Source of the DNA: a virus
Virus record (IMG/VR): IMGVR_UViG_3300023116_000248
Location: 1-28,692 of that record
Length of the DNA: 28,692 nucleotides
Reading direction: 5' to 3' (one strand)
Position numbers and translations under genes: made by a program. This document shows positions 12,212-28,692 of this stretch, piece by piece; position 1 is the first letter of the stretch; each line of letters opens with the position of its first letter. Under the pieces are notes generated by a model. The model was not told the origin of the DNA. It worked only from the letters and a program-made list of their open reading frames with translations, and searched no databases.

Positions 12212-12222
12212 CAAATAACCAC

Positions 12223-12251: not shown

Positions 12252-12255
12252 ATAG

Positions 12256-12280: not shown

Positions 12281-12291
12281 ATGGAGTGACA

Positions 12292-12678: not shown

Positions 12679-13336
12679 TTTGACCAAAAAAGGAAAAAAG
12701 AAAGTAACTAAAGAAGAAATCTCCGAGGAAGAATTCACCGAAGAAGAGATGGAAGACGGAGATCTTCAGGATCAAATTCTTTCAATGCTGGGTCTAGCAA
12801 AAAACCCAGAAGCAAGAAGTATTATGATGATGGGAGATTTAACAGAAGAGAGGTCGCTCGAAATTATTACAGCACTTCTTGTATTGTCAGCACAAGTCAA
12901 CCCAGAGACTGGAGTTCCAGATCCAATCAAAATCTATGTCTCAACTTATGGCGGCTCGGCAGATGAGATGTTTGGCATCTATGATGTAATGAGTATGTGT
13001 AAGGCAAAAGGTGTTGTCATTGAGACCATTGGTCTTGGAAAAGTAATGTCAGCAGGAACTTTGATCCTCGCGGCTGGCTCCAAGGGACACAGAAAGCTCG
13101 GAAGACATACTCGTGTTATGATCCATGCTGTAGCCGGTGGTTCGATGGGAGAGCTTCACTCAATCCAGAACGAACTTGAACAAATGAAAGGTCTTCAGGA
13201 CTCATACATTCAGGCCATTTCTGATGAAACTGAGCTGAGTAAAAAGCAAGTACAAAGCCTAATTAATAGGAAAGTAAATGTGTATCTCACTGCCGAAGAA
13301 GCAATTGAGAAAGGACTTGCTGACGGGTTGATGTAA
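12671..13336 (+). CDS. ClpP-like serine protease
   Basis: This 221-residue protein has an acidic N-terminal extension (about 1-35, E/K-rich) followed by a ClpP fold: I-K-I-Y-V-S-T-Y-G-G-S, the nucleophile in G-K-V-M-S127-A-G, A-A-G-S-K-G-H-R and the histidine in R-V-M-I-H152. The Ser-His spacing of 25 equals that of E. coli ClpP. The C-terminal part Y-L-T-A-E-E-A-I-E-K-G-L-A-D also fits. Where ClpP has the catalytic Asp, the sequence reads I-N199-R-K-V-N with no Asp; an Asn in this place is known in Listeria ClpP1. Next to a scaffold-like protein it may process capsid proteins, or act with host Clp ATPases. Confidence 0.85.
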   Translation: MINLTKKGKKKVTKEEISEEEFTEEEMEDGDLQDQILSMLGLAKNPEARSIMMMGDLTEERSLEIITALLVLSAQVNPETGVPDPIKIYVSTYGGSADEMFGIYDVMSMCKAKGVVIETIGLGKVMSAGTLILAAGSKGHRKLGRHTRVMIHAVAGGSMGELHSIQNELEQMKGLQDSYIQAISDETELSKKQVQSLINRKVNVYLTAEEAIEKGLADGLM

Positions 13337-15449: not shown

Positions 15450-15478
15450 AGGAATATAAAATAACTTTGGAGGAAAAA

Positions 15479-17384: not shown

Positions 17385-17717
17385 ATGAGAGTAAAAATAG
17401 CGTATTCTGTCGAGCTTGATGAGGTCGAGAGTGAGCTAAATGAAATTGGCGGTGGCATTGTTGAGAAACTCAGAGATGCTGCTGCAAAAATCGATAGTGC
17501 ATTTGATCTTTTGCTGGAAAACAGAAATAGTTATGGTAGAAGCTCGGCTATCATCGATGAGGCTAGACGTGCCTTAGTTGGTGCGGATGCAACATTGGCC
17601 GACATGCAGGCAGTTATGTTTGCCCTACAGGGATTTTATGAAGGAGACAAAAATGTTCGCGACGGGAGATCTGGTATGGATACCGCAGGGAGCCTATCTG
17701 ATGCGGAAAAGAAATGA
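17385..17717 (+). CDS. Hypothetical helical protein
   Basis: This 110-residue protein starts after CTTGGAGGAAAA. It has a short strand V-K-I-A-Y-S-V-E-L-D followed by helices rich in Ala and Glu. Its last 65 nt overlap the next gene in another frame, an unusually long overlap. Similar short proteins are common in T4-like marine phages from memory. Function unknown. Confidence 0.65.
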   Translation: MRVKIAYSVELDEVESELNEIGGGIVEKLRDAAAKIDSAFDLLLENRNSYGRSSAIIDEARRALVGADATLADMQAVMFALQGFYEGDKNVRDGRSGMDTAGSLSDAEKK

Positions 17718-17895
17718 AAAAGATAATCTGTTTTCGAATGCTGAAGTTGCAACAAAACCAGTAATAGGAGTATTTGTTGGAGAGGCAGAAAATAGAGATT
17801 ATAAAAAAGTTATGGTAGGAGACACCTTCTACGAGGTTAACAACAAGGAGATAAAATTTTATGTTGAGAGGCGCAAGACCGAATTGGCTAATTGA
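17653..17895 (+). CDS. Small SH3/KOW-like protein of the G-D-L-V family
   Basis: This 80-residue protein starts at ATG 17653 with AAGGAGAC ahead, inside the 3' end of the previous gene. The N-terminus F-A-T-G-D-L-V-W-I-P and later V-I-G-V-F-V-G-E, K-V-M-V-G-D-T-F-Y-E-V and K-F-Y-V-E-R give the strand pattern of the small proteins that fill 21416-28692. It is the family's most upstream member in the window. Function unknown. Confidence 0.65.
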   Translation: MFATGDLVWIPQGAYLMRKRNEKDNLFSNAEVATKPVIGVFVGEAENRDYKKVMVGDTFYEVNNKEIKFYVERRKTELAN

Positions 17896-18157
17896 GCTAG
17901 TTGAGGTGATGGAGTACGAAGGTTCATATAGATTAATTGAGTTCTATGTGAACCCAAGACATGTTGTATCTGTTGAGGACCATATGCCCACACCCCATCT
18001 GATAGAAGAGACTCAGAGGATTGGGCTTGCTAAGAGAATCGAATTTAGCACAATAACTCTTAAAGAATATGGTACACCCAAGCGAGTCATAGTTGTCGGT
18101 TCAGCTCGATCCATCTCCGAGAAAATTAATAACAGAAGAGGGTTACTGAAGGGATGA
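17861..18157 (+). CDS. Small hypothetical protein
   Basis: This 98-residue protein begins at ATG 17861 after AAGGAGATAA and overlaps the upstream gene by 35 nt. It appears alpha/beta, with R-L-I-E-F-Y-V-N-P-R-H-V-V-S-V and a final K-R-V-I-V-V-G-S-A. The N-P-x-H-V pattern recalls short phage regulatory-like proteins, but no assignment is justified. Linked by ATGA to the glutaredoxin gene. Confidence 0.65.
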   Translation: MLRGARPNWLIELVEVMEYEGSYRLIEFYVNPRHVVSVEDHMPTPHLIEETQRIGLAKRIEFSTITLKEYGTPKRVIVVGSARSISEKINNRRGLLKG

Positions 18158-18420
18158 CTTATTTTAAAATTATAGCCAAAAAAGACTGCGTGTTCTGTTT
18201 GAAGGCTAGGATTCTACTTATGGAGCGTGGTGAGAATTTTGAGTTCTGTGACGTTGACAGCAGCCCAGAGTTATTACAGGCATACAAGGCTAATTATAAG
18301 CACAGTACTGTTCCAATGATCCTAATGAAGGATACTGGGAGTAAGTATGAAAAGTTTATCGGTGGCTTTAGTGAACTGGTAGAACTGTTCCGCACCAGAG
18401 AAAAATTGGAGGTAAAGTGA
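18154..18420 (+). CDS. Glutaredoxin
   Basis: This 88-residue protein has the thioredoxin-fold glutaredoxin signatures: redox motif C12-V-F-C15, cis-proline motif S-T-V-P54, and G-G-F-S-E-L near residue 70. It would pass electrons from glutathione or thioredoxin reductase to disulfides; in phages it usually serves ribonucleotide reductase, though no nrd gene is in the window. A third Cys (C32) is present. The start overlaps the previous TGA. Confidence 0.9.
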   Translation: MTYFKIIAKKDCVFCLKARILLMERGENFEFCDVDSSPELLQAYKANYKHSTVPMILMKDTGSKYEKFIGGFSELVELFRTREKLEVK

Positions 18421-18563
18421 AAAATGGAAAGAAAAACGAAAAAATCTACAAAGAAGACGACAGCACCTGTTCTTGTGTCTGCATTAATGATGAGATTTTA
18501 CAATTCCAAACTTCGCACAATAAACAAGCGATAACAACCAATAATTTCTGGGGGCTACAATGA
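18417..18563 (+). CDS. Tiny ORF, frame uncertain
   Basis: A 48-residue GTG ORF fits exactly between its neighbours with GTGA and ATGA overlaps and contains C-S-C-V-C. A second frame offers a 36-residue very basic peptide from ATG 18424 to 18534 (K-K-S-T-K-K-T-T). One GGAGG (18408-18412) is 4 nt from the GTG and 11 nt from the ATG, so spacing does not decide. At most one is likely real. Confidence 0.35.
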   Translation: MKNGKKNEKIYKEDDSTCSCVCINDEILQFQTSHNKQAITTNNFWGLQ

Positions 18564-19750
18564 TTTGGCTATTGAGTTCATTACTGAGCGTTGCTTCGGC
18601 AGACGCTCTTAATGCAGTTGAGACTAGCTATACGGGTGCTACTATCCTGCAAGGTGATACTGATGTCTGGTTCGCTAATGTAACGGATGCGAACTATGAG
18701 CATTCTGATTATGCTTATGGGTTTTTCGAGGGTAATACCCTGTATGTTGGAAACTCTGATCAATACGGAAACTCTATCGATGCTATCGTAGAGTTCTTCT
18801 GGTTTCAGTCGTCCATTGATAGAGGTTCTGACTTCTATGTTGGTGTGGTCAAAGTGCGAGCAACTCCTGGCCGTGACTGTCCTTGGTATCTTGGAGGAAC
18901 TGATTGTGAACTCTGGGCCGACGACTGGCAGGACTGGGGTGAGTACCCTGTTGTTTCTGTTGAGGCCATCACAGATGTGTCCAGAGAACAAGGTGCATTC
19001 CGTTGGGACTGGGCTGTTCCATTTGAGAACTATGGTATTGATGCCTATGGTCAGGTAAGTATCTCAAATCGTTATGGAATTGGAGCAAATGCATCGGCTG
19101 GCGCAGAAGGATCTGCCATGACCGCCCTCAGTCTCCCTGAAGGAACAAACATCAATGGTGTCCCTGTTAATGGAAGTGCTCAAGGTTCTGCGGAGATCCA
19201 ATCAAAAGGTTATCTCAATTCTGAATTCATGGTCCAGACTCAATATGAAACTACCCTTTATGAATGGGATGTGTTTGTGAATGGCCGTGCTGATCTGATG
19301 GCGTGGGACACCTACCTGAACCTTGGAGTAAGAGCAAATCAATCTGCTTATTATGAATACTTCCTTCCAATTCAGGTTGAGACTGGTCACAATTTCTATA
19401 TGGACCAATTCAACTTTGTTTCTAACTTTGACATCGGAAACATAAATCCATTCGCTTATGAGTTGGGACTTAGCCTTCAGGGTGTTGAGATCGCACCACC
19501 ACTCTATGAAGAGCCAGAAGAAGAGCCTGAGCCGTCCTCAGAGCCTACTGAGGAGCCGATAGAAGAACCAGAGGAAGAAGACACTGCTGTTCCTGATCAA
19601 GAAGACACAGGCGATTCTGAAGCCTCTGAAGACAGATTGGAACTAGATGGCGACACACCTGAACGTGTAAAGGCTGGTTGTAACTCGATTGATAAAGCAG
19701 TTTGGTTGAGTCTTTTAGTTATACCATTCATTCTGAGGAGAAGAGAGTGA
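18560..19750 (+). CDS. Secreted surface protein with MYXO-CTERM-like C-terminal anchor
   Basis: This 396-residue protein has a short signal peptide (residues 1-14, I-W-L-L-S-S-L-L-S-V-A-S-A). The body (about 20-310) is rich in aromatic, Asn, Gly and acidic residues and looks all-beta; it has paired cysteines (R-D-C-P-W-Y ... D-C-E-L-W). Residues about 315-365 are a Glu/Pro/Ser/Thr linker with E-D-T-A and E-D-T-G. The end is A-G-C-N-S, then W-L-S-L-L-V-I-P-F-I-L, then R-R-R-E. A Gly-Cys, one membrane span and an Arg cluster match MYXO-CTERM/GlyGly-CTERM-type sorting tails. The protein is probably displayed on the infected cell surface. Role unknown; superinfection exclusion or surface remodelling are possibilities. 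Confidence 0.75.
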   Translation: MIWLLSSLLSVASADALNAVETSYTGATILQGDTDVWFANVTDANYEHSDYAYGFFEGNTLYVGNSDQYGNSIDAIVEFFWFQSSIDRGSDFYVGVVKVRATPGRDCPWYLGGTDCELWADDWQDWGEYPVVSVEAITDVSREQGAFRWDWAVPFENYGIDAYGQVSISNRYGIGANASAGAEGSAMTALSLPEGTNINGVPVNGSAQGSAEIQSKGYLNSEFMVQTQYETTLYEWDVFVNGRADLMAWDTYLNLGVRANQSAYYEYFLPIQVETGHNFYMDQFNFVSNFDIGNINPFAYELGLSLQGVEIAPPLYEEPEEEPEPSSEPTEEPIEEPEEEDTAVPDQEDTGDSEASEDRLELDGDTPERVKAGCNSIDKAVWLSLLVIPFILRRRE

Positions 19751-20049
19751 CCTATCGTCCATTGCCAGATTTTTTATATATTTCTAGGTCTGAAATCGAC
19801 GGGCACGGTCTTTTTACTTCCAAATCTTTAGAGAGCGATTTTGTACTTGGGATTACTCACGTCAAAGATAATCGATTTGAGGATAATTATATTAGAACAC
19901 CACTGGGTGGTTTCTTTAATCACTCTGAGGATCCAAACTGTGAGGCTTATATCGTCGATGACTATATTATGCTAAAAACAATCAAGCCGATTAATGCAGG
20001 CGAAGAGATTACAGTGTTTTATTGGCTGTACTCAATTGATGAAAATTAA
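19747..20049 (+). CDS. SET-domain protein (putative lysine methyltransferase)
   Basis: This 100-residue protein starts at GTG overlapping the upstream TGA, with GAGGAG ahead. It is a minimal SET domain: G19-H-G-L-F near the start, then G-G-F-F-N58-H-S-E-D-P-N-C65 (AdoMet and pseudoknot motif), and A-G-E86-E-I-T-V-F-Y92-W-L-Y95. There are no pre- or post-SET domains, as in Chlorella virus vSET. The family transfers methyl groups to lysines of proteins. The target here is unknown; the flanking genes encode exported proteins, but this one has no signal peptide. Confidence 0.88.
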   Translation: MTYRPLPDFLYISRSEIDGHGLFTSKSLESDFVLGITHVKDNRFEDNYIRTPLGGFFNHSEDPNCEAYIVDDYIMLKTIKPINAGEEITVFYWLYSIDEN

Positions 20050-20064
20050 TTTACGGAGGAGAGA

Positions 20065-20643
20065 ATGATTCTATTATTGATACTTAATGCCCTAGCAGGT
20101 CAGCCCCCTGAGACTGTAGCAAAAGAGCCAGTAATAGTAGAGAACAAACCACCAGAAGTTTACATTGACGGAGCACTAATTGTTGACGAGACAAGTGTTC
20201 TAAATCAAGCTCACGTCGATTCAGTTATAAGTGGCCTAGCTGCACAGTATGCCCACCACTATTTTCCAACAGATTTGGAGCCGATCATTTTCGATGACTT
20301 TAGTAATTCTTATGCTGAGGATTGCAACTACCAACTGAATACTTATGAGTGCTCTTTAAATAATGATCACTGGACTGTGATGACAAACATTCACATGACC
20401 AAAGAGGTTCTTGGTGTGTCAATGAAAATTTACGATAATTACGGTAAACTTCGAGCAGCATCCGCAACAAATTTAGTGGTTAAGACAGAGTGCCGAAGAC
20501 CTCCTCGTAGAAGGATACCACACCCCACCCAAGGGTCTGCGCCATACGACCCACCAGAGGAGTGTAAAGAGGTTTATCCTCGCCTATTATCCAAATCTTT
20601 AAGTCAATCAATCAAGATTTTATTTAGCAACATTCGTCCGTAA
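20065..20643 (+). CDS. Secreted hypothetical protein
   Basis: This 192-residue protein starts after ACGGAGGAGAG. Residues 1-12 are a very short hydrophobic signal (I-L-L-L-I-L-N-A-L-A-G), then a Pro/Glu-rich segment. The folded part has four cysteines (D-C-N-Y, Y-E-C-S, E-C-R-R, E-C-K-E) that could form two disulfides in the periplasm, and a basic proline-rich loop (R-R-P-P-R-R-R). The stop codon lies in the stem of a terminator. No family recognised. Confidence 0.7.
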   Translation: MILLLILNALAGQPPETVAKEPVIVENKPPEVYIDGALIVDETSVLNQAHVDSVISGLAAQYAHHYFPTDLEPIIFDDFSNSYAEDCNYQLNTYECSLNNDHWTVMTNIHMTKEVLGVSMKIYDNYGKLRAASATNLVVKTECRRPPRRRIPHPTQGSAPYDPPEECKEVYPRLLSKSLSQSIKILFSNIRP

Positions 20644-20666
20644 GCCCGATGGCTACGGACTTTTTT
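20636..20666 (+). terminator. Intrinsic terminator
   Basis: GTCCGTA (20636-20642) pairs with TACGGAC (20654-20660); the inner AGCC/GGC extends the stem past a bulged A, and six T follow. It ends the 18560-20643 transcription unit; the stop codon of that gene is in the left arm. Confidence 0.9.
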
Positions 20667-20724
20667 ATTATAGCCTTTTACTTTTTTGTTTTTTCGTTCC
20701 CTATTTACTTATGAGGACGATGAT

Positions 20725-21426
20725 ATGAAATTAAAATTACTATTCTTGGCATTGATGATGTTTCTGAGTACTTCCTTTACTCACACAACCGAATGGTCCG
20801 ATGAATATATTCGAGATGTTAATCCTTTTTCTAACATTGGCATGAAGAATGCAATAAGGTCATCTGTGCAAATCCATTCTTTCGTTGATGGTAAGCCGTT
20901 TAGCTTTGGGTCTGGAAATTATTTTAGACTCGGAAAACATAGGTTTATTCTGACGGCTGCTCATGTCGTTGACAAAGCCGACAGTGTTCTGGTTGTCGAG
21001 AGAAGCATGGATGGAGTAATCGGAACAGTAGTGTACCAGAACGATAAGACTGATGTGGCAATCCTTAGATTGGATCAAAACCTAAAACACACAAAGCCCA
21101 TATATTACAGAACCGCTCATGAGAATTTGATGGGAGAATCAGTATACTATGTTGGTCACCCAGCAGGAGTTACTTTCTTCGTAGAGGAAGGGATCTTCTC
21201 TGGTTATCATGCAGAAAGACTTCTTGTCAATGTTTATGGTTACCCCGGCTCTAGCGGGTCTGTACTGTTTGATGATGATGGTCGTGTTGTTGGTGTTCTG
21301 TCTGCGGTCAAGGCAGAAGTAATTGCTGGGATGATCCCAGTTTACTTGTCTCAATTGACTCTAGCAGCTGACACCAGTTACCTAGACGACATAATTATAG
21401 GACAAATTTTAAGAGATGGAGAATAA
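20725..21426 (+). CDS. Exported trypsin-like serine protease
   Basis: This 233-residue protein is taken from ATG 20725 (upstream in-frame start ignored) with GAGGA ahead. Residues 1-20 form a signal peptide (K-L-K-L-L-F-L-A-L-M-M-F-L-S). The chymotrypsin-fold triad is visible: H80 in T-A-A-H-V, D110 in K-T-D-V-A-I-L and S177 in G-Y-P-G-S-S-G-S, followed by G-R-V-V-G-V-L. There is no PDZ domain, unlike DegP/HtrA. It probably acts in the periplasm or outside, on the host envelope or on its exported neighbours. The next gene overlaps by 11 nt. Confidence 0.88.
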   Translation: MKLKLLFLALMMFLSTSFTHTTEWSDEYIRDVNPFSNIGMKNAIRSSVQIHSFVDGKPFSFGSGNYFRLGKHRFILTAAHVVDKADSVLVVERSMDGVIGTVVYQNDKTDVAILRLDQNLKHTKPIYYRTAHENLMGESVYYVGHPAGVTFFVEEGIFSGYHAERLLVNVYGYPGSSGSVLFDDDGRVVGVLSAVKAEVIAGMIPVYLSQLTLAADTSYLDDIIIGQILRDGE

Positions 21427-21661
21427 AGATCAAGTACCGGAAAAATATAAAGAAGGTACTCTCATAAATGACAACGGCAGAATAGGTATCATTTATAGAG
21501 AGATACGGGCAGGTACGTGGTCAACTCATCCCTTGTTTAACTGGAGAACAAATTACGAGATATACTACTCCGATGGCATGATCTCTATAATGGGCAAGGC
21601 TACGATTGATAGACTGATAGAAGAAGGAACAATCAAGATACTGGAAGTCCCAGAGGATTAG
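21416..21661 (+). CDS. Small SH3/KOW-like protein
   Basis: This 81-residue protein overlaps the protease gene by 11 nt. The pattern E-G-T-L-I-N-D-N-G-R-I-G-I-I-Y, then Y-E-I-Y-Y-S-D-G, then T-I-K-I-L-E-V parallels the G-D-L-V family (strand, short loop, G-I-G-I-I strand, V-x-W-like strand, L-E-V end). It is a divergent member. Confidence 0.6.
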   Translation: MENKDQVPEKYKEGTLINDNGRIGIIYREIRAGTWSTHPLFNWRTNYEIYYSDGMISIMGKATIDRLIEEGTIKILEVPED

Positions 21662-21711
21662 CATGCTACCCTGCTGCCCCACTGGGTATACACGTCGTAG
21701 GAGGGCAACGT

Positions 21712-22008
21712 GTGGATTACAAAAAACATGACTTAGTACTGGTATCGGATGGAAACTCTGCAATGACTTGTATTGTTCTCCACGATAAACTATCAGATTA
21801 TTTTCATGATGAGCTTGGGTCTTTTTATTTTTGTTGGGTCATCGAGCTTTCTTCTTACATAGTGGTGTATGATTATGAAATAATTGAACTTCTTGCTAAA
21901 GATTTTGTGCTAGATTTTCTCCCAGACTTTGATTTCACAAATTATATGGATGAAAATGATTTGTTTGAGAAATTAAAAAGTGCGCTTGGCAAAATTGGCT
22001 ACGAGTAA
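21712..22008 (+). CDS. Small hypothetical protein, divergent G-D-L-V family
   Basis: This 98-residue protein starts at GTG 21712 with GGAGGG (21700-21705). The N-terminus K-K-H-D-L-V-L-V-S-D-G-N-S-A-M-T-C-I-V-L recalls the family fold, followed by a longer acidic helical tail (D-E-N-D-L-F-E-K-L-K). Function unknown. Confidence 0.6.
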   Translation: MDYKKHDLVLVSDGNSAMTCIVLHDKLSDYFHDELGSFYFCWVIELSSYIVVYDYEIIELLAKDFVLDFLPDFDFTNYMDENDLFEKLKSALGKIGYE

Positions 22009-22028
22009 TTATCGGCATTTATCCGAGA

Positions 22029-22382
22029 ATGCCCAAGCTGTCTCATACTTATTGTATGAAGAAAAAATATGACCCCTTCACTCACAAGTATAAAATTGGA
22101 GACCTCATAGTCTATAAGGCCCAACTTTTATACCACAAAGATGAAGTGGGTATGGTGACTGACATCATATTTCTACCTCACGATGATTGCCCTATTTACG
22201 AGATAGATGTCCCAAGCGGCAGAGACATATTGACACAATTTGACGCCCAATTTCTTTTAATACCTCTCGAACACTACAGGGAGTTAAAGAAAAATAGAAA
22301 AAAACTTGAAGAAAATAAACAAAAACTTATTGACACCAAGGAAGAATGTGTTACATTAGAGGAAGAAGATGCAGATAGGTGA
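22029..22382 (+). CDS. SH3/KOW-like domain plus coiled-coil tail
   Basis: This 117-residue protein reads Y-K-I-G-D-L-I-V-Y-K near residue 22, D-E-V-G-M-V-T-D-I-I-F, and D-A-Q-F-L-L-I-P-L-E near 75, then a lysine-rich coiled coil (K-K-L-E-E-N-K-Q-K-L). Neither possible start (22029 or 22056) has a good ribosome binding site, and the 22029 ATG lies in the right arm of a hairpin (22014-22033). Translation may depend on the upstream gene. Confidence 0.6.
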   Translation: MPKLSHTYCMKKKYDPFTHKYKIGDLIVYKAQLLYHKDEVGMVTDIIFLPHDDCPIYEIDVPSGRDILTQFDAQFLLIPLEHYRELKKNRKKLEENKQKLIDTKEECVTLEEEDADR

Positions 22383-22545
22383 TCTTGTAAAACTACACCG
22401 TGATCTGTATGTGCCAGAAATAGTACTTGAGTGGGGTATTGGTATCATACTACACTACTCCCCTGCATACGAAACAGTTTCTGTTTTCTGGCCAAATAAA
22501 GAAGTGGAGAGAGTTTTTTCCCTAATAGCCTTGGAGAAAATATGA
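22369..22545 (+). CDS. Small SH3/KOW-like G-D-L-V family protein
   Basis: This 58-residue protein overlaps the preceding gene by 14 nt, with GAGGAAGA ahead. It begins M-Q-I-G-D-L-V-K-L, continues E-W-G-I-G-I-I-L-H-Y and V-S-V-F-W-P-N-K, and ends A-L-E-K-I. It is a canonical compact member. Its stop overlaps the next start (ATGA). Confidence 0.7.
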   Translation: MQIGDLVKLHRDLYVPEIVLEWGIGIILHYSPAYETVSVFWPNKEVERVFSLIALEKI

Positions 22546-22760
22546 AAAGATTTGACTTTCGTAGGGAACTGAAGGAGTTGCAAGAAGGTGATCTTGTAAC
22601 ACAGCATCGAGGACACAGGTCGAGAGTAGGTAGTGATTGGGGCATCGGTACAGTGATTGAGGCTGATGCGGTATACATACGAGTGTTCTGGCCGAGATGG
22701 AATAAAGTCTTCTCAATGAATAGATTAGAGTTGGAGTTTATTGATGCTGAAAGTCGGTGA
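22542..22760 (+). CDS. Small SH3/KOW-like G-D-L-V family protein
   Basis: This 72-residue protein has a 15-residue charged helix before Q-E-G-D-L-V-T, then D-W-G-I-G-T-V-I, Y-I-R-V-F-W-P-R-W and N-R-L-E-L-E-F-I. The V-F-W-P segment closely matches the preceding gene, suggesting tandem duplication. GGAG at 22533-22536 serves the ATGA start. Confidence 0.7.
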   Translation: MKRFDFRRELKELQEGDLVTQHRGHRSRVGSDWGIGTVIEADAVYIRVFWPRWNKVFSMNRLELEFIDAESR

Positions 22761-22941
22761 TTTGGTATCATTTAGAATACTCCTTGAGGCTGATAACACT
22801 GGTTCGTTTTGGACTTGGAAAGAAGGTATTGGCCATATTACTGGTGCTGTGTATCTTGAGGATGGCAAAATGTTTTATGAAATCGTCGATGCTGAGGGTA
22901 GATTGCATGATGTCCCACCAAATGATATAAACAAACTTTAA
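22744..22941 (+). CDS. Small SH3/KOW-like G-D-L-V family protein
   Basis: This 65-residue protein starts at ATG 22744, 17 nt inside the preceding gene; TTGGAG upstream is the likely binding site. M-L-K-V-G-D-L-V-S-F-R, then E-G-I-G-H-I-T-G-A-V and F-Y-E-I-V-D-A-E-G. It lacks the terminal L-E-V, ending N-D-I-N-K-L. Confidence 0.7.
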   Translation: MLKVGDLVSFRILLEADNTGSFWTWKEGIGHITGAVYLEDGKMFYEIVDAEGRLHDVPPNDINKL

Positions 22942-22949
22942 GAAAAAAC

Positions 22950-22977
22950 TTGACAAATCATTGAGACGTGATATATT
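22950..22977 (+). promoter_or_regulatory. Extended -10 promoter, leaderless start
   Basis: TTGACA (22950-22955), a 16-nt spacer ending TGA, and TATATT (22972-22977). The next start codon (22984) lies 7 nt after the -10, where transcription is expected to begin. Confidence 0.75.
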
Positions 22978-22983
22978 GATTTT

Positions 22984-23151
22984 ATGGTAGAGATTGGTTC
23001 ATTAGTGAGACACAAATCGAGTGGGACTATTGGTATATGTATATACATTTCCCATACCCCAGAGGCCATCCACCATATAGAGGTCTGGGTACCAAACGAT
23101 AGTACCACCCGTTGGTGGTCCGAAGAGTACTGTGAGGTAATATGCAGGTAG
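22984..23151 (+). CDS. Small SH3/KOW-like protein, probably leaderless
   Basis: This 55-residue protein begins M-V-E-I-G-S-L-V-R-H, then G-T-I-G-I-C-I-Y-I and I-E-V-W-V-P-N, ending C-E-V-I-C-R. No ribosome binding site exists between the promoter and ATG. Its last codons (GAG GTA ATA TGC AGG TAG) carry the binding site and start of the next gene, the same junction as in the 27511-28692 array. Confidence 0.65.
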   Translation: MVEIGSLVRHKSSGTIGICIYISHTPEAIHHIEVWVPNDSTTRWWSEEYCEVICR

Positions 23152-23315
23152 GGGACCTGATAAAGATACAAAGTAACGACAAGCAAGTCACTTTGATTGG
23201 CATCTTTCTTGGGGTATCAGAGAAGTTTGATTATAGAATATATTATAATAATGATCGGATTGCCGATTTTGATTTTAGATTTTGGACTTTTGAGGTGATA
23301 GATGGACATAGGTGA
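23142..23315 (+). CDS. Small SH3/KOW-like G-D-L family protein
   Basis: This 57-residue protein overlaps the previous gene by 10 nt. M-Q-V-G-D-L-I-K-I-Q, then L-I-G-I-F-L-G-V, Y-R-I-Y-Y-N-N-D and W-T-F-E-V-I-D-G-H-R. It overlaps the next gene by 14 nt. The binding site GAGG is inside the upstream coding sequence. Confidence 0.65.
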   Translation: MQVGDLIKIQSNDKQVTLIGIFLGVSEKFDYRIYYNNDRIADFDFRFWTFEVIDGHR

Positions 23316-23454
23316 TTTAGTAATGCATAAAGAAGATCGTAGGATTGGGTTAATACAAAGACTACCAGCCATTGGTGACCCATTCTATCTTGTTGAGTTT
23401 GTTGGCTCTGGTCTTTGTTTGTGTCACTTTCATTCATTGGTGCTTGTATGTTAA
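23302..23454 (+). CDS. Small SH3/KOW-like G-D-L-V family protein
   Basis: This 50-residue protein has GAGG eight nt upstream within the previous gene. M-D-I-G-D-L-V-M-H-K, R-R-I-G-L-I-Q-R-L, F-Y-L-V-E-F-V-G, ending H-S-L-V-L-V-C. Overlaps the next ORF by 7 nt. Confidence 0.65.
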   Translation: MDIGDLVMHKEDRRIGLIQRLPAIGDPFYLVEFVGSGLCLCHFHSLVLVC

Positions 23455-23627
23455 AAGAGCTTAATGAAGGCGATCTTGTTTTGGTCGAGTCCGATGTTCC
23501 TGCTGGTATTGCTCAACTATCGTTTATTGGTATAGTGGTATCTATTAGTCCTTATTTTGTTCACGTTGTCAATCTCAAAGACGCAAAGAGTTATAGGATC
23601 ACTCCCGATTGGTGCGAGGTTATATAA
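23448..23627 (+). CDS. Small SH3/KOW-like G-D-L-V family protein
   Basis: This 59-residue protein begins M-L-K-E-L-N-E-G-D-L-V-L-V, then F-I-G-I-V-V-S-I-S, Y-F-V-H-V-V-N-L and ends D-W-C-E-V-I. It closes the 22984-23627 sub-array. No obvious ribosome binding site; translational coupling to the overlapping upstream gene is likely. Confidence 0.65.
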   Translation: MLKELNEGDLVLVESDVPAGIAQLSFIGIVVSISPYFVHVVNLKDAKSYRITPDWCEVI

Positions 23628-23645
23628 AAAACTTTATCTTTTTAC

Positions 23646-23673
23646 TTGACAAAACTTTTCATCGTGATACAAT
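23646..23673 (+). promoter_or_regulatory. Extended -10 promoter
   Basis: TTGACA (23646-23651), a 16-nt spacer ending CGTGA, and TACAAT (23668-23673). Preceded by the AAAAAACTTTATCTTTTTA block. It drives the membrane protein gene at 23705. Confidence 0.8.
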
Positions 23674-23704
23674 AATAACAACTCAACAACAAAGGAGAAA
23701 AACA

Positions 23705-24064
23705 ATGAGTGTAAAAAACCCTTTTGAAGACAATAAAAACAGAGAGCAGACCAGAAAGTGGCTTGCGGATAAGATTGACTACTATGCAAACTGGCTATAT
23801 CTCTTTGATCAAATAACCAAATGGTCTGGCTGGCTCTTCTTGATTATTTCACTCGTCTGGACAATCTATAGCACTTTGTCTGGGGTTTCTAACTCCCGAC
23901 CCAGCCAACAATCAGCAATGATGTTATCAGGGCTTCTGACTGGCTTTGTTACTCTTTTTGCGTGGTTTGCTTATGAAATGTGGAGGTCCATCTCTTTTGG
24001 TGTGCTTTGGACCCTTGCTGCAATCGAAGAATGGACTCGTCCATCACAACTCAGCGATGACTGA
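23705..24064 (+). CDS. Two-span membrane protein
   Basis: This 119-residue protein starts after AAGGAGAAAAAC. Polar N-terminus with W-L-A-D-K-I-D-Y-Y, then membrane spans about 40-60 (G-W-L-F-L-I-I-S-L-V-W-T-I-Y) and about 75-96 (L-S-G-L-L-T-G-F-V-T-L-F-A-W-F), then an amphipathic aromatic tail. No family recognised. Holin-like topology is possible, but it is far from the endolysin. Confidence 0.75.
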   Translation: MSVKNPFEDNKNREQTRKWLADKIDYYANWLYLFDQITKWSGWLFLIISLVWTIYSTLSGVSNSRPSQQSAMMLSGLLTGFVTLFAWFAYEMWRSISFGVLWTLAAIEEWTRPSQLSDD

Positions 24065-24099
24065 GTTGGAACATCAACCCTTTAACAACGGAGGTCATC

Positions 24100-24438
24100 A
24101 TGGCCCGTTACAAAGACTGCGTTCATTGCGGTGATACATTTAGACTAGATGCTCCTCGCAAGAGGCGCGTCGGTGGTAAGATTAACGAGTGTGCTGATTG
24201 TGTCGAGGAACTTGATACAGAAACAGCACCAGTAATCCGAGGCTTTGTCTCTGGCTCTGCAAAGCAAGCAGCAATCTCTTTTGTCAGGTTTGACAATGAG
24301 AAAGACGCAGTGCGCTATGGCAAAGCATGGAGAGCCAATAGTGGATGGAACAATCAACGGACTGGTGGATTGAATGACGTAACATTCTCTCACGCTGGCG
24401 CAAATGCAACCGAAGAACCAAAAAAGAAAGGGGCCTAA
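24100..24438 (+). CDS. Putative zinc-ribbon protein
   Basis: This 112-residue protein starts after ACGGAGGTCATC. The N-terminus holds C-V-H-C-G-D-T-F and C-A-D-C, a four-cysteine zinc ribbon within the first 35 residues. The remainder (R-F-D-N-E-K-D-A-V-R-Y-G-K-A-W) looks like a small alpha/beta domain with a lysine-rich end. Nucleic-acid binding is plausible for the ribbon. Function unknown. Confidence 0.7.
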   Translation: MARYKDCVHCGDTFRLDAPRKRRVGGKINECADCVEELDTETAPVIRGFVSGSAKQAAISFVRFDNEKDAVRYGKAWRANSGWNNQRTGGLNDVTFSHAGANATEEPKKKGA

Positions 24439-24439
24439 G

Positions 24440-24640
24440 ATGACGACAGAAACAGAGTTTGAGAAAGCACAGAAGTTTGCATTAAGAATGGTAGAGAGAT
24501 TTACTTTGACCGAACTACTACTTAATAGTATGGAGATGATCGATACCCTTCCAGAAGATCAAAAAGATGCAGCATGGCAAGCAGTTATGTTATTGGTCGA
24601 AGGGGCTAAAAAAAGCGGAGTGTTGATCGCGGAGGCATAA
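24440..24640 (+). CDS. Small helical hypothetical protein
   Basis: This 66-residue protein starts at ATG 24440, two bases after the upstream stop, with GGGG as a weak binding site. All-helical, acidic and Met-rich (L-T-E-L-L-L-N-S-M-E-M-I). No family recognised. Confidence 0.6.
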   Translation: MTTETEFEKAQKFALRMVERFTLTELLLNSMEMIDTLPEDQKDAAWQAVMLLVEGAKKSGVLIAEA

Positions 24641-24641
24641 T

Positions 24642-24827
24642 GTGGATTATGAGATAGGTGACCTCGTTATTGATGACATCATGGGCATTGGGCTAATCAT
24701 TGACATTATGCACGATGATAATGATGTTGATGGGCTGATCTATCTCGTTTTCTATGCTAAAGATGACCAACACGTTTTAGAGTATTCAGATGAACTAGTA
24801 CCCTACTACCCTGACTACATGGACTAA
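24642..24827 (+). CDS. Small SH3/KOW-like G-D-L-V family protein
   Basis: This 61-residue protein starts at GTG 24642, six nt after GGAGG (24631-24635). D-Y-E-I-G-D-L-V-I-D-D, G-I-G-L-I-I-D-I-M, I-Y-L-V-F-Y-A-K, then a very acidic end. A competing ATG at 24640 gives only five codons. Confidence 0.65.
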   Translation: MDYEIGDLVIDDIMGIGLIIDIMHDDNDVDGLIYLVFYAKDDQHVLEYSDELVPYYPDYMD

Positions 24828-24840
24828 TACAGGAGAAACA

Positions 24841-25140
24841 ATGGCAAATCTAGCATTCAGCAAGAAAGAACCTTGGGCAAAAGCTCAAGACGCAATGACT
24901 AAGCACATTCTGGACCAAACCGATGGTGCTTTTAAAGTGAGACAGGATGAAGGAGCGATCTGTGTTTATGCCGAAAGACCAGATACTTTGCCAGAGGGAC
25001 CAGCAGGCTATATGCTAAATCCACCATCTGCTTATCGAGAAGGTGCTGATCTCCCTGTTCGCTTTATGGGCTGGAGATGTGTTTATTTCTCTGTTCCTTC
25101 TGGCTATCTTGATTATATGTGGAAGAAGAGTAAGCAATGA
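24841..25140 (+). CDS. Hypothetical protein
   Basis: This 99-residue protein starts after CAGGAGAAACA. Alpha/beta in appearance with a Pro-rich middle (D-T-L-P-E-G-P-A-G-Y) and R-C-V-Y-F-S-V-P-S-G-Y-L-D-Y-M-W near the end. No family recognised. Its stop overlaps the next start (ATGA). Confidence 0.65.
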   Translation: MANLAFSKKEPWAKAQDAMTKHILDQTDGAFKVRQDEGAICVYAERPDTLPEGPAGYMLNPPSAYREGADLPVRFMGWRCVYFSVPSGYLDYMWKKSKQ

Positions 25141-25343
25141 CCTCTCAAATACTAGAAGTTGGTGATCTGGTTCATTACATCCAGAGACCTGTTTATGACG
25201 GTGATTATCCAGAGGACTTCGGCATCGTTCTTAGGCTCTATAAAGAGGGCTATGTGGTTGTCCATTGGTTTCGCGAAGGAGCCACATCCATAGAGAAAAA
25301 AGTGAGACAAACAAACGATGGCCCCATGAAAAAGATTGCGTAA
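25137..25343 (+). CDS. Small SH3/KOW-like G-D-L-V family protein
   Basis: This 68-residue protein reads L-E-V-G-D-L-V-H-Y-I, F-G-I-V-L-R-L-Y, G-Y-V-V-V-H-W-F-R, with a basic end K-K-I-A. ATGA overlap with the preceding gene indicates coupling. Confidence 0.65.
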   Translation: MTSQILEVGDLVHYIQRPVYDGDYPEDFGIVLRLYKEGYVVVHWFREGATSIEKKVRQTNDGPMKKIA

Positions 25344-25377
25344 TCTTCGAGGCCCATAAAAAACTTTATCTTTTTTC

Positions 25378-25405
25378 TTGACAAATCAAAACATCGTGAT
25401 ACATT
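25378..25405 (+). promoter_or_regulatory. Extended -10 promoter
   Basis: TTGACA (25378-25383), 16 nt ending CGTGA, TACATT (25400-25405). Preceded by AAAAAACTTTATCTTTTTTC. Drives the gene at 25428. Confidence 0.8.
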
Positions 25406-25427
25406 ATAAACATCAATGGAGGCGACG

Positions 25428-25613
25428 ATGAAAGCAGGCGACTTGGTTGTCTGGAACTGGTGGTCAGACACAGAAGGTGATGGTCAAAGCGTTGGTGTAA
25501 TCAAAAGAGTTTGGGAGTCTTACCTTACATCAGGGTTGTTTTTCTATGAAGTCCAGTTTGGTGACGGTTCTATTGTTCACGACCTATTAGAAAAAGAGTT
25601 GGAGTTGTTATGA
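25428..25613 (+). CDS. Small SH3/KOW-like G-D-L-V family protein
   Basis: This 61-residue protein starts at 25428; the in-frame ATG at 25416 is fused to the GGAGG. M-K-A-G-D-L-V-V-W-N-W-W, S-V-G-V-I-K-R-V-W, F-Y-E-V-Q-F-G-D-G, ending L-E-L-L. It has its own promoter. Confidence 0.7.
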   Translation: MKAGDLVVWNWWSDTEGDGQSVGVIKRVWESYLTSGLFFYEVQFGDGSIVHDLLEKELELL

Positions 25614-25632
25614 TAAAAATAATGAAAACTAC

Positions 25633-25660
25633 TTGACAAATCTTTAAGACATGATACGTT
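25633..25660 (+). promoter_or_regulatory. Extended -10 promoter
   Basis: TTGACA (25633-25638), 16 nt ending CATGA, TACGTT (25655-25660). Drives the gene at 25682. Confidence 0.75.
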
Positions 25661-25681
25661 ACAAACAACCAAGGAGGAAAC

Positions 25682-25930
25682 ATGACTTCATTCTGGAAAC
25701 AGTATCTCGCGCACAACAACGCAACACCCTATGAAAAATCAACAGGTGTCACACCACAGGCTGGTGATCTTGTGATTGTAAAGACAACTTTGATGGACCC
25801 TGAGTATCCGATGTTTGTGGTGGGTTGCATTCTTGATGCCGAGCATCCCTTTGGAGATGCTGGTGTAACAGTCACGTTCCGTGGCGAGACACGCGAGATG
25901 CATTACACTTGGTTAAGAAAAGTTTGTTAA
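25682..25930 (+). CDS. SH3/KOW-like G-D-L-V family protein with N-terminal extension
   Basis: This 82-residue protein follows AAGGAGGAAAC. About 25 polar residues precede Q-A-G-D-L-V-I-V-K, then F-V-V-G-C-I-L-D-A and V-T-V-T-F-R-G-E, ending Y-T-W-L-R-K-V-C. Confidence 0.65.
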   Translation: MTSFWKQYLAHNNATPYEKSTGVTPQAGDLVIVKTTLMDPEYPMFVVGCILDAEHPFGDAGVTVTFRGETREMHYTWLRKVC

Positions 25931-25935
25931 AATAC

Positions 25936-25963
25936 TTGACAAATCTTTGAGACGTGATACATT
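25936..25963 (+). promoter_or_regulatory. Extended -10 promoter
   Basis: TTGACA (25936-25941), 16 nt ending CGTGA, TACATT (25958-25963). Drives the 25994-26665 run of three genes. Confidence 0.8.
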
Positions 25964-25993
25964 ACTACTACCCACCCAAGTACAGGAGACATT

Positions 25994-26236
25994 ATGCCTA
26001 AGAAGCGAAAGATCAAGAACCCCTACAAGTTAACACTAGAAGAAGCAATACAGATTGCCGAAGGAGAGAAAGAGGTAGATGAGGACAAGTACATCGCAAC
26101 TTGGCAATGGCTAATCGACACCGATCATGCTTGGAACCTACAGGGATGGTACGGTAGGGCCGCTGCCGAATACGTGAGAACAGGGCTTTGCACAATGCCC
26201 ATACAATCAAGTGATGGAGGAGACAATGGAAAGTAA
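25994..26236 (+). CDS. Conserved phage small protein
   Basis: This 80-residue protein has a basic N-terminus (P-K-K-R-K-I-K-N-P), then W-Q-W-L-I-D-T-D-H-A-W-N-L-Q-G-W-Y-G-R-A-A and a final G-L-C-T. The W-x-x-L-I-D-T-x-x-x-W-x-L-Q-G-x-x-G-R-x-A pattern is familiar from many tailed phages (recalled). The function of that family is unknown. Overlaps the next gene by 11 nt. Confidence 0.75.
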   Translation: MPKKRKIKNPYKLTLEEAIQIAEGEKEVDEDKYIATWQWLIDTDHAWNLQGWYGRAAAEYVRTGLCTMPIQSSDGGDNGK

Positions 26237-26447
26237 TAACGAGATCAACATCAGCATCAACGTGAGCGACGACTTACTAAAGAAAATGATGTCACTGATG
26301 GTATCAATGAGCCAACCGCCAACAATGGGCATTCCAGCAGCAATGCTCGGAGCATTGGCCGGACCACCACCATCAGCACCAAAGGAAGATAAAACACCAA
26401 TAGGGTTCAGACCACCAGAAACTGCTAACAACAAGGAGAAACAATGA
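26226..26447 (+). CDS. Small hypothetical protein
   Basis: This 73-residue protein starts at 26226 after GGAGGAGACA. N-terminal strand N-I-S-I-N-V-S-D-D and a Met-rich helix, then a proline-rich disordered tail (G-P-P-P-S-A-P-K). No family recognised. ATGA overlap to the next gene. Confidence 0.6.
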   Translation: MESNNEINISINVSDDLLKKMMSLMVSMSQPPTMGIPAAMLGALAGPPPSAPKEDKTPIGFRPPETANNKEKQ

Positions 26448-26665
26448 ATAGCAACCTAAAACCATTCCGCGCTACCACCGAAGAGGCCGTACAAATCTTC
26501 GAGCATATTTATTCGATGTGCCCCACTAACTTTACTTATAGTGCCTTTATGGGGGACAACTTTCAGATTACTTGCAATCGAACTGGAGAAACAATCGTTC
26601 TAGGAATGTGGTCTTTCCGAGACCCAGACAGCGTACTAATCGCATTCAACAAAGATTTTCTATAA
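26444..26665 (+). CDS. Small hypothetical protein
   Basis: This 73-residue protein is coupled to the previous gene by ATGA with AAGGAG ahead. Helix (T-E-E-A-V-Q-I-F-E-H-I-Y) followed by strands (F-Q-I-T-C-N-R-T-G-E-T-I-V-L-G-M-W). No family recognised. Confidence 0.6.
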   Translation: MNSNLKPFRATTEEAVQIFEHIYSMCPTNFTYSAFMGDNFQITCNRTGETIVLGMWSFRDPDSVLIAFNKDFL

Positions 26666-26681
26666 AAGTTAATCTTTTTAC

Positions 26682-26709
26682 TTGACATCTCTCAGCAATG
26701 TGATACATT
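26682..26709 (+). promoter_or_regulatory. Extended -10 promoter
   Basis: TTGACA (26682-26687), 16 nt ending TGTGA, TACATT (26704-26709). Preceded by AAAAGTTAATCTTTTTA. Drives the gene at 26742. Confidence 0.8.
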
Positions 26710-26741
26710 ACTAACACAACCAACAAACATTGGAGGTCAAA

Positions 26742-27500
26742 ATGACTATTACGTCAGAACAACTAAAAGAAACTGCTGAGAGATGTCGATTGCTTGGCCT
26801 AGAACGAAAGGCCGATGCGCTTCTTAGCATGAATGACTATCTCTCCGAGAAAGGTTATCTCACTGGTCGCCAGAGCGAGTATGCTTCTCAAATGATAAAT
26901 GAGTTTACTGATGATGTAGTTGGAGAAAGGATTGCCCAACGTCAGGCTTGGGTAGATGCTTGGGATAGTGGCGATAAAGACTTTCTTGCTTGGCTCGACT
27001 TCTTGACCTTGTACTATACACTACATTGCGTACAACAACGTTCGAATGAGAACCACATCCTGTGGTACAAACACACGGCACGCGATGTTCGTAATGCCTT
27101 AGAGGCAAGAGAAAGGGTAAGTTGCCCTATCAATCAAATCGAGCGTTTGTTTGGGTCTAAACTGTACGACAAACTTCGTGCTACCTACGATGCTACCCCC
27201 ATGTATAGTGTGGGTGACTTGGTGTGTATAAGAGGAACTAGCAAAACATTCCCTGCTCATCGGATCATTCACTACGCGCACAAAGACGAGCGAGGCGAAG
27301 GTCCAAACGTATACCCAGACTACAAAGTCGCAGAAGGTTATAAGATTGCGCTGGTTGCGGAAGTCACCAACTACACAGTTGCTTGTCGTCAAGTTCATAA
27401 AACCAAGGGAACCACTCGTCTCTACAAGATTGTCGCATTCAGCGGAGGACAACAAGATGAGTGTTGGATTGAAGAAAGTGCAATCAAACTAGTAAAGTAA
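26742..27500 (+). CDS. Two-part protein: helical domain fused to a G-D-L-V SH3-like domain
   Basis: This 252-residue protein starts at ATG 26742 after TTGGAGGTCAAA. Residues 1-150 are helical with L-S-M-N-D-Y-L-S-E-K-G-Y-L-T-G-R-Q-S-E-Y-A, a pattern recalled from marine phage proteins of unknown role, and a Trp-rich W-V-D-A-W-D-S-G-D. Residues about 160-252 begin Y-S-V-G-D-L-V-C-I-R and end R-L-Y-K-I-V-A-F-S-G ... W-I-E-E-S-A-I-K-L-V, the same layout as the small family proteins with insertions. It is the only large protein here carrying that domain and directly precedes the tandem array. Confidence 0.7.
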   Translation: MTITSEQLKETAERCRLLGLERKADALLSMNDYLSEKGYLTGRQSEYASQMINEFTDDVVGERIAQRQAWVDAWDSGDKDFLAWLDFLTLYYTLHCVQQRSNENHILWYKHTARDVRNALEARERVSCPINQIERLFGSKLYDKLRATYDATPMYSVGDLVCIRGTSKTFPAHRIIHYAHKDERGEGPNVYPDYKVAEGYKIALVAEVTNYTVACRQVHKTKGTTRLYKIVAFSGGQQDECWIEESAIKLVK

Positions 27501-27510
27501 TGGAGGTAGT

Positions 27511-27663
27511 ATGCAAGTAGGCGATTTAGTAACAGCACCGACGGGTGCGCTTGCTATGATTGTTGACATGACATGTGTTCAGGCCAAAGTGTTCTGGCTC
27601 TCTGCTCCAAGGTTTGGGTCTAATGGGTGGATATATCTACACACGCTCGAAGTCGTAACATAA
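27511..27663 (+). CDS. Array cassette protein 1
   Basis: This 50-residue protein has GGAGGTAGT directly before the ATG. M-Q-V-G-D-L-V-T-A-P, L-A-M-I-V-D-M, A-K-V-F-W-L-S, Y-L-H-T-L-E-V-V-T. It ends before the C-K-stop junction; a promoter separates it from cassette 2. Confidence 0.65.
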   Translation: MQVGDLVTAPTGALAMIVDMTCVQAKVFWLSAPRFGSNGWIYLHTLEVVT

Positions 27664-27688
27664 TCTCAAAAAAAGTTTATCTTTTTCC

Positions 27689-27716
27689 TTGACAAATCCT
27701 ACCACCGTGATACACT
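27689..27716 (+). promoter_or_regulatory. Extended -10 promoter inside the array
   Basis: TTGACA (27689-27694), 16 nt ending CGTGA, TACACT (27711-27716). Preceded by AAAAAAAGTTTATCTTTTTCC. Drives the cassettes from 27747. Confidence 0.8.
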
Positions 27717-27746
27717 ATGTATGTAACCAACAACAACGGAGACAAA

Positions 27747-27899
27747 ATGCAAGTAGGTAGTCTAGTCAGATACAAAACCAGTGGCTGGATCGGCTTTGTA
27801 TTAGAAACTAACTGTGACAGGGCACTTGTCCATTTTCCAAATCATCGAAATCCTGTCTGGTGGTTAGACCAGATACTAGTGGAGGTACTATGCAAGTAG
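27747..27899 (+). CDS. Array cassette protein 2
   Basis: This 50-residue protein starts at 27747 after ACGGAGACAAA. M-Q-V-G-S-L-V-R-Y-K, W-I-G-F-V-L-E-T, A-L-V-H-F-P-N-H, W-W-L, ending V-E-V-L-C-K. Overlaps cassette 3 by 10 nt. Confidence 0.7.
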   Translation: MQVGSLVRYKTSGWIGFVLETNCDRALVHFPNHRNPVWWLDQILVEVLCK

Positions 27900-28066
27900 G
27901 AAGTTTAGTCAGATACAGGAAAGAATACCCAGACGGTATGAAGATAGACTGGATTGGAGTAGTGATTGATAACACTCGTGTCGGTGGCGCACCTATCCTT
28001 GTCCAGTACAGCAACGGAATGAGACACTGGAAACAACCCAATGACTTGGAGATAATATGCAAGTAG
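27890..28066 (+). CDS. Array cassette protein 3
   Basis: This 58-residue protein reads M-Q-V-G-S-L-V-R-Y-R, D-W-I-G-V-V-I-D-N, I-L-V-Q-Y-S-N-G, ending L-E-I-I-C-K. Its first ten residues closely match cassette 2. Ten-nt overlaps at both ends. Confidence 0.7.
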   Translation: MQVGSLVRYRKEYPDGMKIDWIGVVIDNTRVGGAPILVQYSNGMRHWKQPNDLEIICK

Positions 28067-28224
28067 GCGACCTAGTAGATGATGGACTTGGCAACATTGG
28101 CATCATAACAGTAGTTGATAAAAACAGCACGTTACCCTATTTCGCCCAGTTTCTCAATACTTATGAGGGATGGGTGATTACTGGCTGGTACACAGACGAA
28201 GACTTGGAGGTAGTATGCAAGTAG
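28057..28224 (+). CDS. Array cassette protein 4
   Basis: This 55-residue protein reads M-Q-V-G-D-L-V-D-D-G, N-I-G-I-I-T-V-V, Y-F-A-Q-F-L-N, W-Y-T-D-E-D-L-E-V-V-C-K. Ten-nt overlaps at both ends; GGAGATA of the upstream gene is its binding site. Confidence 0.7.
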   Translation: MQVGDLVDDGLGNIGIITVVDKNSTLPYFAQFLNTYEGWVITGWYTDEDLEVVCK

Positions 28225-28361
28225 GATCACTAGTCAGGGATAAGATTTGGAATAGGATAGGTATTGTCGAGGCTGTTCAAGGTCGTAAATATAGGATACA
28301 CTGGAACTGTGGTGATACATTTTGGTGTCAGGAACGTAATGTGGAGGTAATATGCAAGTAG
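28215..28361 (+). CDS. Array cassette protein 5
   Basis: This 48-residue protein, the shortest member, reads M-Q-V-G-S-L-V-R-D-K, N-R-I-G-I-V-E-A-V, Y-R-I-H-W-N-C-G, ending V-E-V-I-C-K. Ten-nt overlaps at both ends. Confidence 0.7.
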   Translation: MQVGSLVRDKIWNRIGIVEAVQGRKYRIHWNCGDTFWCQERNVEVICK

Positions 28362-28522
28362 GCGATTTGATAACGGTTGTATTTCACGGACGTTGCAATG
28401 GGGATTTCGGCACTATCGTGAAGATTGAAAAGAGACCGGGGTTTGTAGCACAACACACAGTAATACTTGCAAACGGTGCAGAGATTATATTGACCCCCAT
28501 CCAGTGTAAGGTGTTGGCATGA
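28352..28522 (+). CDS. Array cassette protein 6
   Basis: This 56-residue protein reads M-Q-V-G-D-L-I-T-V-V, D-F-G-T-I-V-K-I, H-T-V-I-L-A-N-G, ending Q-C-K-V-L-A. Its end is divergent: the junction lacks GGAGG and overlaps the next ATG by only ATGA. Confidence 0.65.
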   Translation: MQVGDLITVVFHGRCNGDFGTIVKIEKRPGFVAQHTVILANGAEIILTPIQCKVLA

Positions 28523-28692
28523 AAGTAGGCGATTTAGTGAGAACCATTCCTCTCCCAGACCAACACCATCTCCCCCCCCAGAATGGGCATTCTTTTAGAG
28601 GTTGATGTAGGCTATCATCCAGTAATGGTGCTTTGGTTTGATGGTACAAAGAGGTCTATCCCTTGGAACAGATTGGAGGTAGTATGCAAGTA
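28519..28692 (+). pseudogene. Array cassette protein 7, frameshifted at a C8 run
   Basis: The frame from ATG 28519 (M-K-V-G-D-L-V-R-T-I-P-L) hits a stop at about 28603-28605. After eight C (28572-28579) another frame reads M-G-I-L-L-E-V-D, V-M-V-L-W-F-D-G-T, W-N-R-L-E-V-V-C-K, the expected second half of a cassette. Losing one C would join both halves. This may be a sequencing error, a broken gene or a phase-variable switch. Confidence 0.7.
28684..28692 (+). CDS. Start of array cassette 8 (partial)
   Basis: ATGCAAGTA after GGAGGTAGT is the standard cassette start (M-Q-V). The rest lies beyond the window. Confidence 0.6.

Follow-up and report, generated by a model that had tools for sequence, protein, structure and literature searches.

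An array of small SH3-like barrel genes in a phage contig, with coding junctions that may act as seams for cassette exchange

From about 22 kb to its end, the window analyzed here (the whole of the linear IMG/VR record IMGVR_UViG_3300023116_000248, 28,692 bases) carries many small plus-strand genes whose products start with M-x-V-G-D/S-L-V, which raises the question of what these genes are and how so many came to lie side by side. The record is a fragment of a larger phage, and its gene content includes DnaE-type polymerase, ClpP-like protease, GroEL, amidase, UvdE, SET-domain and trypsin-like genes. A UvdE UV-endonuclease (1879-2811) and a full-length GroEL (15467-17047) are thus found on one phage fragment, together with a SET-domain ORF (19702-20049, Pfam E 2.9e-10). 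Between 18560 and 19750 lies the gene of a secreted-looking protein of 396 aa with an acidic linker and a C-terminal Cys/hydrophobic/Arg tail, for which searches of NCBIfam and Pfam gave no match; the tail resembles MYXO-CTERM-like sorting tails and could hint at the host.

A sequence-only reading had proposed that about two dozen genes of the region are paralogues of one minimal barrel domain, expanded in one phage under diversifying pressure. The ordered pattern behind this proposal (G-D/S-L-V, G-I-V-V, V-x-W, W, L-E-V) was confirmed in the window genes. A family HMM, seeded with six genes (27511-28522) and iterated over the 265 six-frame ORFs of the window, gathered 17 ORFs at E<=0.001-0.01 (22029, 22369, 22542, 22984, 23142, 23302, 23448, 24642, 25137, 25428, 25682, 27511, 27747, 27890, 28057, 28215 and 28352), and the best value for spurious or minus-strand ORFs was E=0.13. 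A second profile, whose alignment was restricted to sequences from other contigs but whose search was begun from the window seed, so that it is not fully independent, recovered 15 of the 17 at E<0.005 and gave weaker scores to 23448 (E 0.04), 22744 (E 0.075) and 25682 (E 0.27). These comparisons support the view that the ORFs of the profile form one GDLV barrel family. By profile, the proposed single family holds for 16-17 ORFs (22029-23627, 24642-25613, 25682 and 27511-28522) but is not supported for the genes at 17653, 21416 and 21712 or for the C-terminus of 26742, and the count comes to about 18-20 rather than two dozen. The genes at 17653, 21416 and 21712 stayed below significance in both profile searches of the window ORFs; each occurs as a single gene in synteny, with orthologues of its own in relatives. 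The protein of 21416-21661 keeps its synteny across many array-bearing contigs, with 62-78% identity in several, and is possibly a fixed core gene of the array phages. The C-terminus of 26742 did not reach significance in the profile searches either. Its AlphaFold model is confidently helical at the N-terminus and, at low confidence, beta at the C-terminus, where a short turn precedes the last strand; this would be compatible with the family fold, and a fold search with the model gave no significant match. The genes are as follows.

17653..17895, + strand: GDLV-starting 80-aa protein, syntenic single gene, no significant family match
21416..21661, + strand: GTLI-type small protein, widely syntenic, no significant family match
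21712..22008, + strand: small protein, no significant family match
22029..22382, + strand: family member with helical C-terminal tail, syntenic in relatives (HMM, other-contig profile)
22369..22545, + strand: family member (HMM, other-contig profile)
22542..22760, + strand: family member (HMM, other-contig profile)
22744..22941, + strand: borderline family member, syntenic in relatives (E 0.075, other-contig profile)
22984..23151, + strand: family member, downstream of promoter 22950 (HMM, other-contig profile)
23142..23315, + strand: family member, overlaps the preceding gene by 10 nt (HMM)
23302..23454, + strand: family member (HMM, other-contig profile)
23448..23627, + strand: family member (HMM, other-contig profile)
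24642..24827, + strand: family member (HMM, other-contig profile)
25137..25343, + strand: family member (HMM, other-contig profile)
25428..25613, + strand: family member, downstream of promoter 25378 (HMM, other-contig profile)
25682..25930, + strand: family member by iteration, syntenic in relatives, downstream of promoter 25633 (E 0.27, other-contig profile)
26742..27500, + strand: 252-aa protein, helical N-terminus and GDLV-starting beta C-terminus
27511..27663, + strand: cassette, GDLV barrel of 50 aa, LEVVT end ahead of a promoter (chain end) (HMM)
27747..27899, + strand: cassette, first gene past promoter 27689 (HMM; overlap junction)
27890..28066, + strand: cassette, modeled five-strand barrel; 92.6% nucleotide identity to a non-syntenic G001 cassette
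28057..28224, + strand: cassette, 81.8% nucleotide identity to L040 (HMM)
28215..28361, + strand: cassette (HMM)
28352..28522, + strand: cassette; 96.3% nucleotide identity to a non-syntenic G001 cassette, background 73-83% (HMM)
28519..28692, + strand: cassette, frame disrupted at a run of C, extends to the contig end, intact relatives exist

At the frame break of 28519-28692, L030 (2006-2178) and L013 (2150-2322) are one base shorter, and L030 is intact; the break may be a sequencing error, an assembly effect or real. The final base of the record is also that of a repeated 20-mer (28673-28692 equals 28204-28223, a truncated junction); the array therefore very likely continues past the contig, and this end within a repeat may be an assembly break or effect.

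The structure prediction that had been suggested as a check on the family gave a barrel. The product of 27890-28066, the sole member modeled with high confidence (AlphaFold on a 111-sequence alignment, pLDDT 92.9), has strands at 6-12, 18-27, 36-40, 45-48 and 53-57 and a short helix at 50-52, and shows the five strands and the 3-10 turn ahead of the last strand that characterize SH3-like barrels; this SH3/Tudor-like fold in one modeled member supports a one-family fold. The top PDB matches in Foldseek were Tudor domains, Spindlin and YorP (TM about 0.7, best E=0.011), which indicate no more than "SH3-like", and the matches in viral structure libraries were many small uncharacterized proteins. 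Individual family members had no significant match in Pfam, PHROGs or NCBIfam. The conserved columns (G4, L6, V7, G23, V38, W40, W47, L53 and E54) form the core, and the variable columns fall in the loop after strand 1, the strand 2-3 hairpin, strand 4 and the turn. In SH3-like barrels, the ligand face is usually made of loops and a hairpin of this kind, so we may fairly infer a binder scaffold. A role as methyl-lysine readers, an idea prompted by the SET-domain ORF of the window, was rejected, as SET was above cut-off in 3 of 20 array-bearing records; Pfam scans of the family members also gave no Tudor match.

How the genes are joined was analyzed across the collected loci. Where two genes are tightly spaced, the final codons of the upstream gene contain the start region of the downstream one (GGAGGT...ATGCAAGTAGG, or TTGGAGGTGATCARTGAAAGTCGGTGA), and the overlaps of such neighbors are quantized at 14 nt (275 cases), 10 nt (123) and 4 nt (63). 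Two consensus sequences describe the junction: tTgGAGGTgATcA followed by (A/G)TGAAAGTcGGTGATT, and tTGGAGGTA.T followed by ATGCAAgTAGG; both include the full Shine-Dalgarno sequence at -10/-11. The loci were collected partly by junction patterns, which inflates absolute junction frequencies, and 271 of the 14/10-nt junctions lie outside all scan patterns, with an identical consensus. In the window, the following copies were found.

27502..27521, + strand: junction sequence GGAGGTAGTATGCAAGTAGG (Shine-Dalgarno sequence and start), 0 expected in shuffles
27881, 28048, 28206 and 28343: further copies of GGAGGTAGTATGCAAGTAGG; weaker copies at 23133 and 27738; truncated copy at the contig end (28673..28692)

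The stretch that ends one protein also serves as the start signal for the gene after it, and the C-terminal VCK or INESR results from reading that gene's start out of frame. Furthermore, the Glu of L-E-V is encoded by GAG in 358 of 377 overlapping genes, compared to 44% GAG elsewhere in the same proteins; hence this strand is written as a Shine-Dalgarno sequence. Of 352 chain-end genes, 168 have L-E-V as well, which argues for a structural strand in its own right. The "W...L-E-V end" that had been taken as a family feature is accordingly a real strand, and partly a by-product of overlapping frames, as GAG GTN also supplies the next gene with its Shine-Dalgarno sequence. Such an arrangement points to translational coupling of neighboring genes.

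The window and its relative G001 are collinear at a background of 73-83% DNA identity. Against this background, window 27890-28077 (92.6%) and 28352-28538 (96.3%) match G001 cassettes at non-syntenic places, and both blocks start at an ATG and end about 20 nt beyond the next ATG. Near-identical cassette pairs between contigs had unrelated neighbors on both sides in 70 of 112 cases, and local similarity within arrays ended at junctions in 35 of 49 and 32 of 46 cases, compared to 13% and 19% expected; the breakpoints were HSP ends, unconditioned on whole-cassette matches, and the breakpoint counts and the cassette pairs are not fully independent. Cassettes are mobile, with breakpoints at the junctions, and the exchange probably proceeds by homologous recombination at the junction. 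Alternatively, the junction could be a strong conserved ribosome-binding/start motif alone, comparable to the start-associated sequences (SAS) of cluster K mycobacteriophages, with recombination being incidental. Start-associated repeats are already known (PMC3203893, PMC7302621) and the junction does carry a full Shine-Dalgarno sequence, but such a motif would leave unexplained the enrichment of similarity breaks at junctions (about four to five times) and the movement of single cassettes between contexts, and we consider it rather unlikely as the whole account. Conservation of the motif for translation would not preclude recombination there.

Promoter-like sites accompany the array: 14 were found on the plus strand and 1 on the minus strand, with 0.2 expected by shuffling.

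27689..27716, + strand: promoter-like site TTGACA-N13-TGATACACT (pattern scan)
22950, 23646, 25378, 25633, 25936 and 26682: further TTGACA-N13-TGATACACT-type sites in the region

Window 27669-27757, which covers the promoter and first codons, matches G001 directly upstream of the homologue of 28352; a promoter leader is modular as well. A second promoter-like family, at 141, 3666 and 7195 of the window, reads TTGACA-N14-TGTTAC(T/A)TT with upstream acgcacg(t/c)(c/t)cc, unlike the array promoters.

Several roles for the barrels were weighed. Nucleic-acid or RNA-polymerase binding modulators of the KOW/NusG type, with the array tuning phage or host transcription, would agree with the SH3/KOW-like fold and with the weak matches of the 26742 model, some of which are ribosomal and NusG folds. 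We nevertheless judge such a role unlikely, given that Pfam scans of the family members returned no KOW or NusG match, that pI ranges from 4.1 to 10 with a median net charge near 0, and that the column profile has no conserved basic patch. Nucleic-acid binding or DNA mimicry by charge was likewise not supported, as the pI is not uniform. Another idea is that the members assemble with one another, as a hetero-oligomeric ring or as part of the virion (Sm-like or decoration). Small SH3-like barrels often oligomerize, and co-translated overlapping genes would favor a fixed stoichiometry. The copy number, however, varies from 7 to 38 per record (20 larger records, which may be fragments), the gene order is reshuffled among close relatives, unlike that of a fixed complex, and the genes have an accessory position with separate promoters, all of which makes this assembly very unlikely.

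The array is not confined to one phage. Exact matches to the junction 20-mer were found in 24 viral contig stretches, and wider patterns gave 54 and 111. A profile search of 136 viral loci (1.3 Mb) gave 1,098 matches at E<0.001, all on the majority strand of the locus; in all, 1,014 distinct family members occur in 89 uncultivated viral contig groups, with one strand per contig (contigs sharing near-identical stretches were merged for contig-group and best-relative counts alone). No cultured phage record was found by DNA or by consensus tblastn, whose sensitivity is limited for 50-aa proteins. In bacterial genomes, the junction pattern gave chance-level single matches, and the other-contig profile matched 0 ORFs in those control loci (602 kb). 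In the closest relative, L008, a gene pair recognized by reading alone (11819-14222), an AAA ATPase and a peptidase/VWA-like gene, follows the array. Among the 874 members with any match, the best relative was in another contig for 799 and in the same contig for 75, and near-identical cassettes gave 186 matches between contigs versus 6 (3 pairs) within loci, contrary to the idea of an expansion in one phage. The pooled dN/dS between near-identical cassettes was 0.16, and pN/pS exceeded 1 in 1% of pairs; the cassettes are under purifying selection, and the suggested diversifying pressure finds no support in these values. In-genome tandem duplication with diversifying selection, in which one phage amplified a barrel gene and the copies diverged under positive selection, is already largely refuted by these counts and ratios and highly improbable, although the three within-locus pairs and a same-contig share above the chance expectation of about 1-2% do speak for it.

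Our preferred reading, to which we give a probability of roughly 0.6, is a modular, junction-recombining pool of small barrel binder proteins, probably host-directed. In this reading, each array unit is a small gene for a single SH3/Tudor-like barrel of five strands and about 50-80 residues, whose core is conserved and whose loops vary. The L-E-V codons of the upstream last strand serve as the Shine-Dalgarno sequence as well (TTG GAG GTN), and the final residues with the stop codon (VCK-stop, INESR-stop) are the out-of-frame next start (ATGCAAGTAG..., ATGAAAGTNGGTGA...). Recombination between any two junctions could then add, delete or swap whole cassettes with translation intact, since the same about 20-25 nt stand at both ends of most cassettes, and the phages of the group would share a pool of stable barrel lineages. 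The architecture and the cassette exchange are seen in the sequences themselves; the function of the barrels is inferred. Most likely, the barrels act as small protein-binding inhibitors or adaptors, each with a different host target, in takeover or counter-defense, presumably expressed from strong sigma70-type promoters; gene size, variability, promoters and accessory status are the grounds for proposing this host-directed action.

Small uncharacterized genes fill much of large phage genomes, and here one fold covers tens of them per phage. The joining rule predicts gene starts, co-translation and gene movement, the junction sequence allows arrays to be found by pattern search, and single genes swapped between phages at a seam, as if from a shared parts kit, offer a concrete route for phage mosaicism that stays in frame. 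Should every barrel prove to bind its own host target, the arrays would amount to a ready catalogue of phage-evolved inhibitors. More tentatively, and at somewhat less than even odds, uncultivated large phages may possess a phage-specific cassette system in which the same about 25 nucleotides serve as protein strand, ribosome-binding site, start codon and recombination seam, forming an exchangeable library of barrel inhibitors against host or defense proteins.

That this fold is frequent in phages is known already; the array with its coding junction is, as far as we found, undescribed, since the open-access literature searched held no published description of such arrays. Integron gene cassettes are single-gene modules exchanged via attC sites by an integrase. 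By analogy, the array cassettes may be likened to them as single-gene modules with a shared short joining sequence that are exchanged as units, but the exchange here would be homologous, at coding junctions of 20-25 nt, unlike that by integrase and attC. The Tudor domains of Polycomb-like proteins (PHF1/PHF19) and Bacillus subtilis YorP align with TM about 0.67-0.70 over 56-64 columns at E 0.01-0.06, which speaks for a shared fold alone and not for homology, in line with the lack of a sequence family match. In the Viral AlphaFold Database report (PMC12487901), SH3/Tudor-like barrels form the largest bacterial-virus-specific structural clusters, the same kind of fold as that of the array barrels; its passages on them concern the fold, and the tandem arrays, coding junctions and cassette exchange are features of the present system. 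In gene organization, the arrays resemble the SAS/ESAS of cluster K mycobacteriophages and cluster EF Microbacterium phages, short Shine-Dalgarno repeats that directly precede numerous small non-structural genes and mostly share one orientation (PMC3203893, PMC7302621). Both systems place a short conserved repeat with a Shine-Dalgarno sequence next to the starts of small genes. SAS/ESAS has a different sequence and serves genes from many families; instead of a 13-bp GGGATAGGAGCCC-type repeat upstream of unrelated genes, the arrays show the consensus TTGGAGGTA.TATGCAAGTAGG or TTGGAGGTGATCA(A/G)TGAAAGTCGGTGAT in one protein family. Unlike SAS/ESAS, the array junction enters the start codons, encodes the C-terminus of the protein before it, and marks recombination breakpoints.
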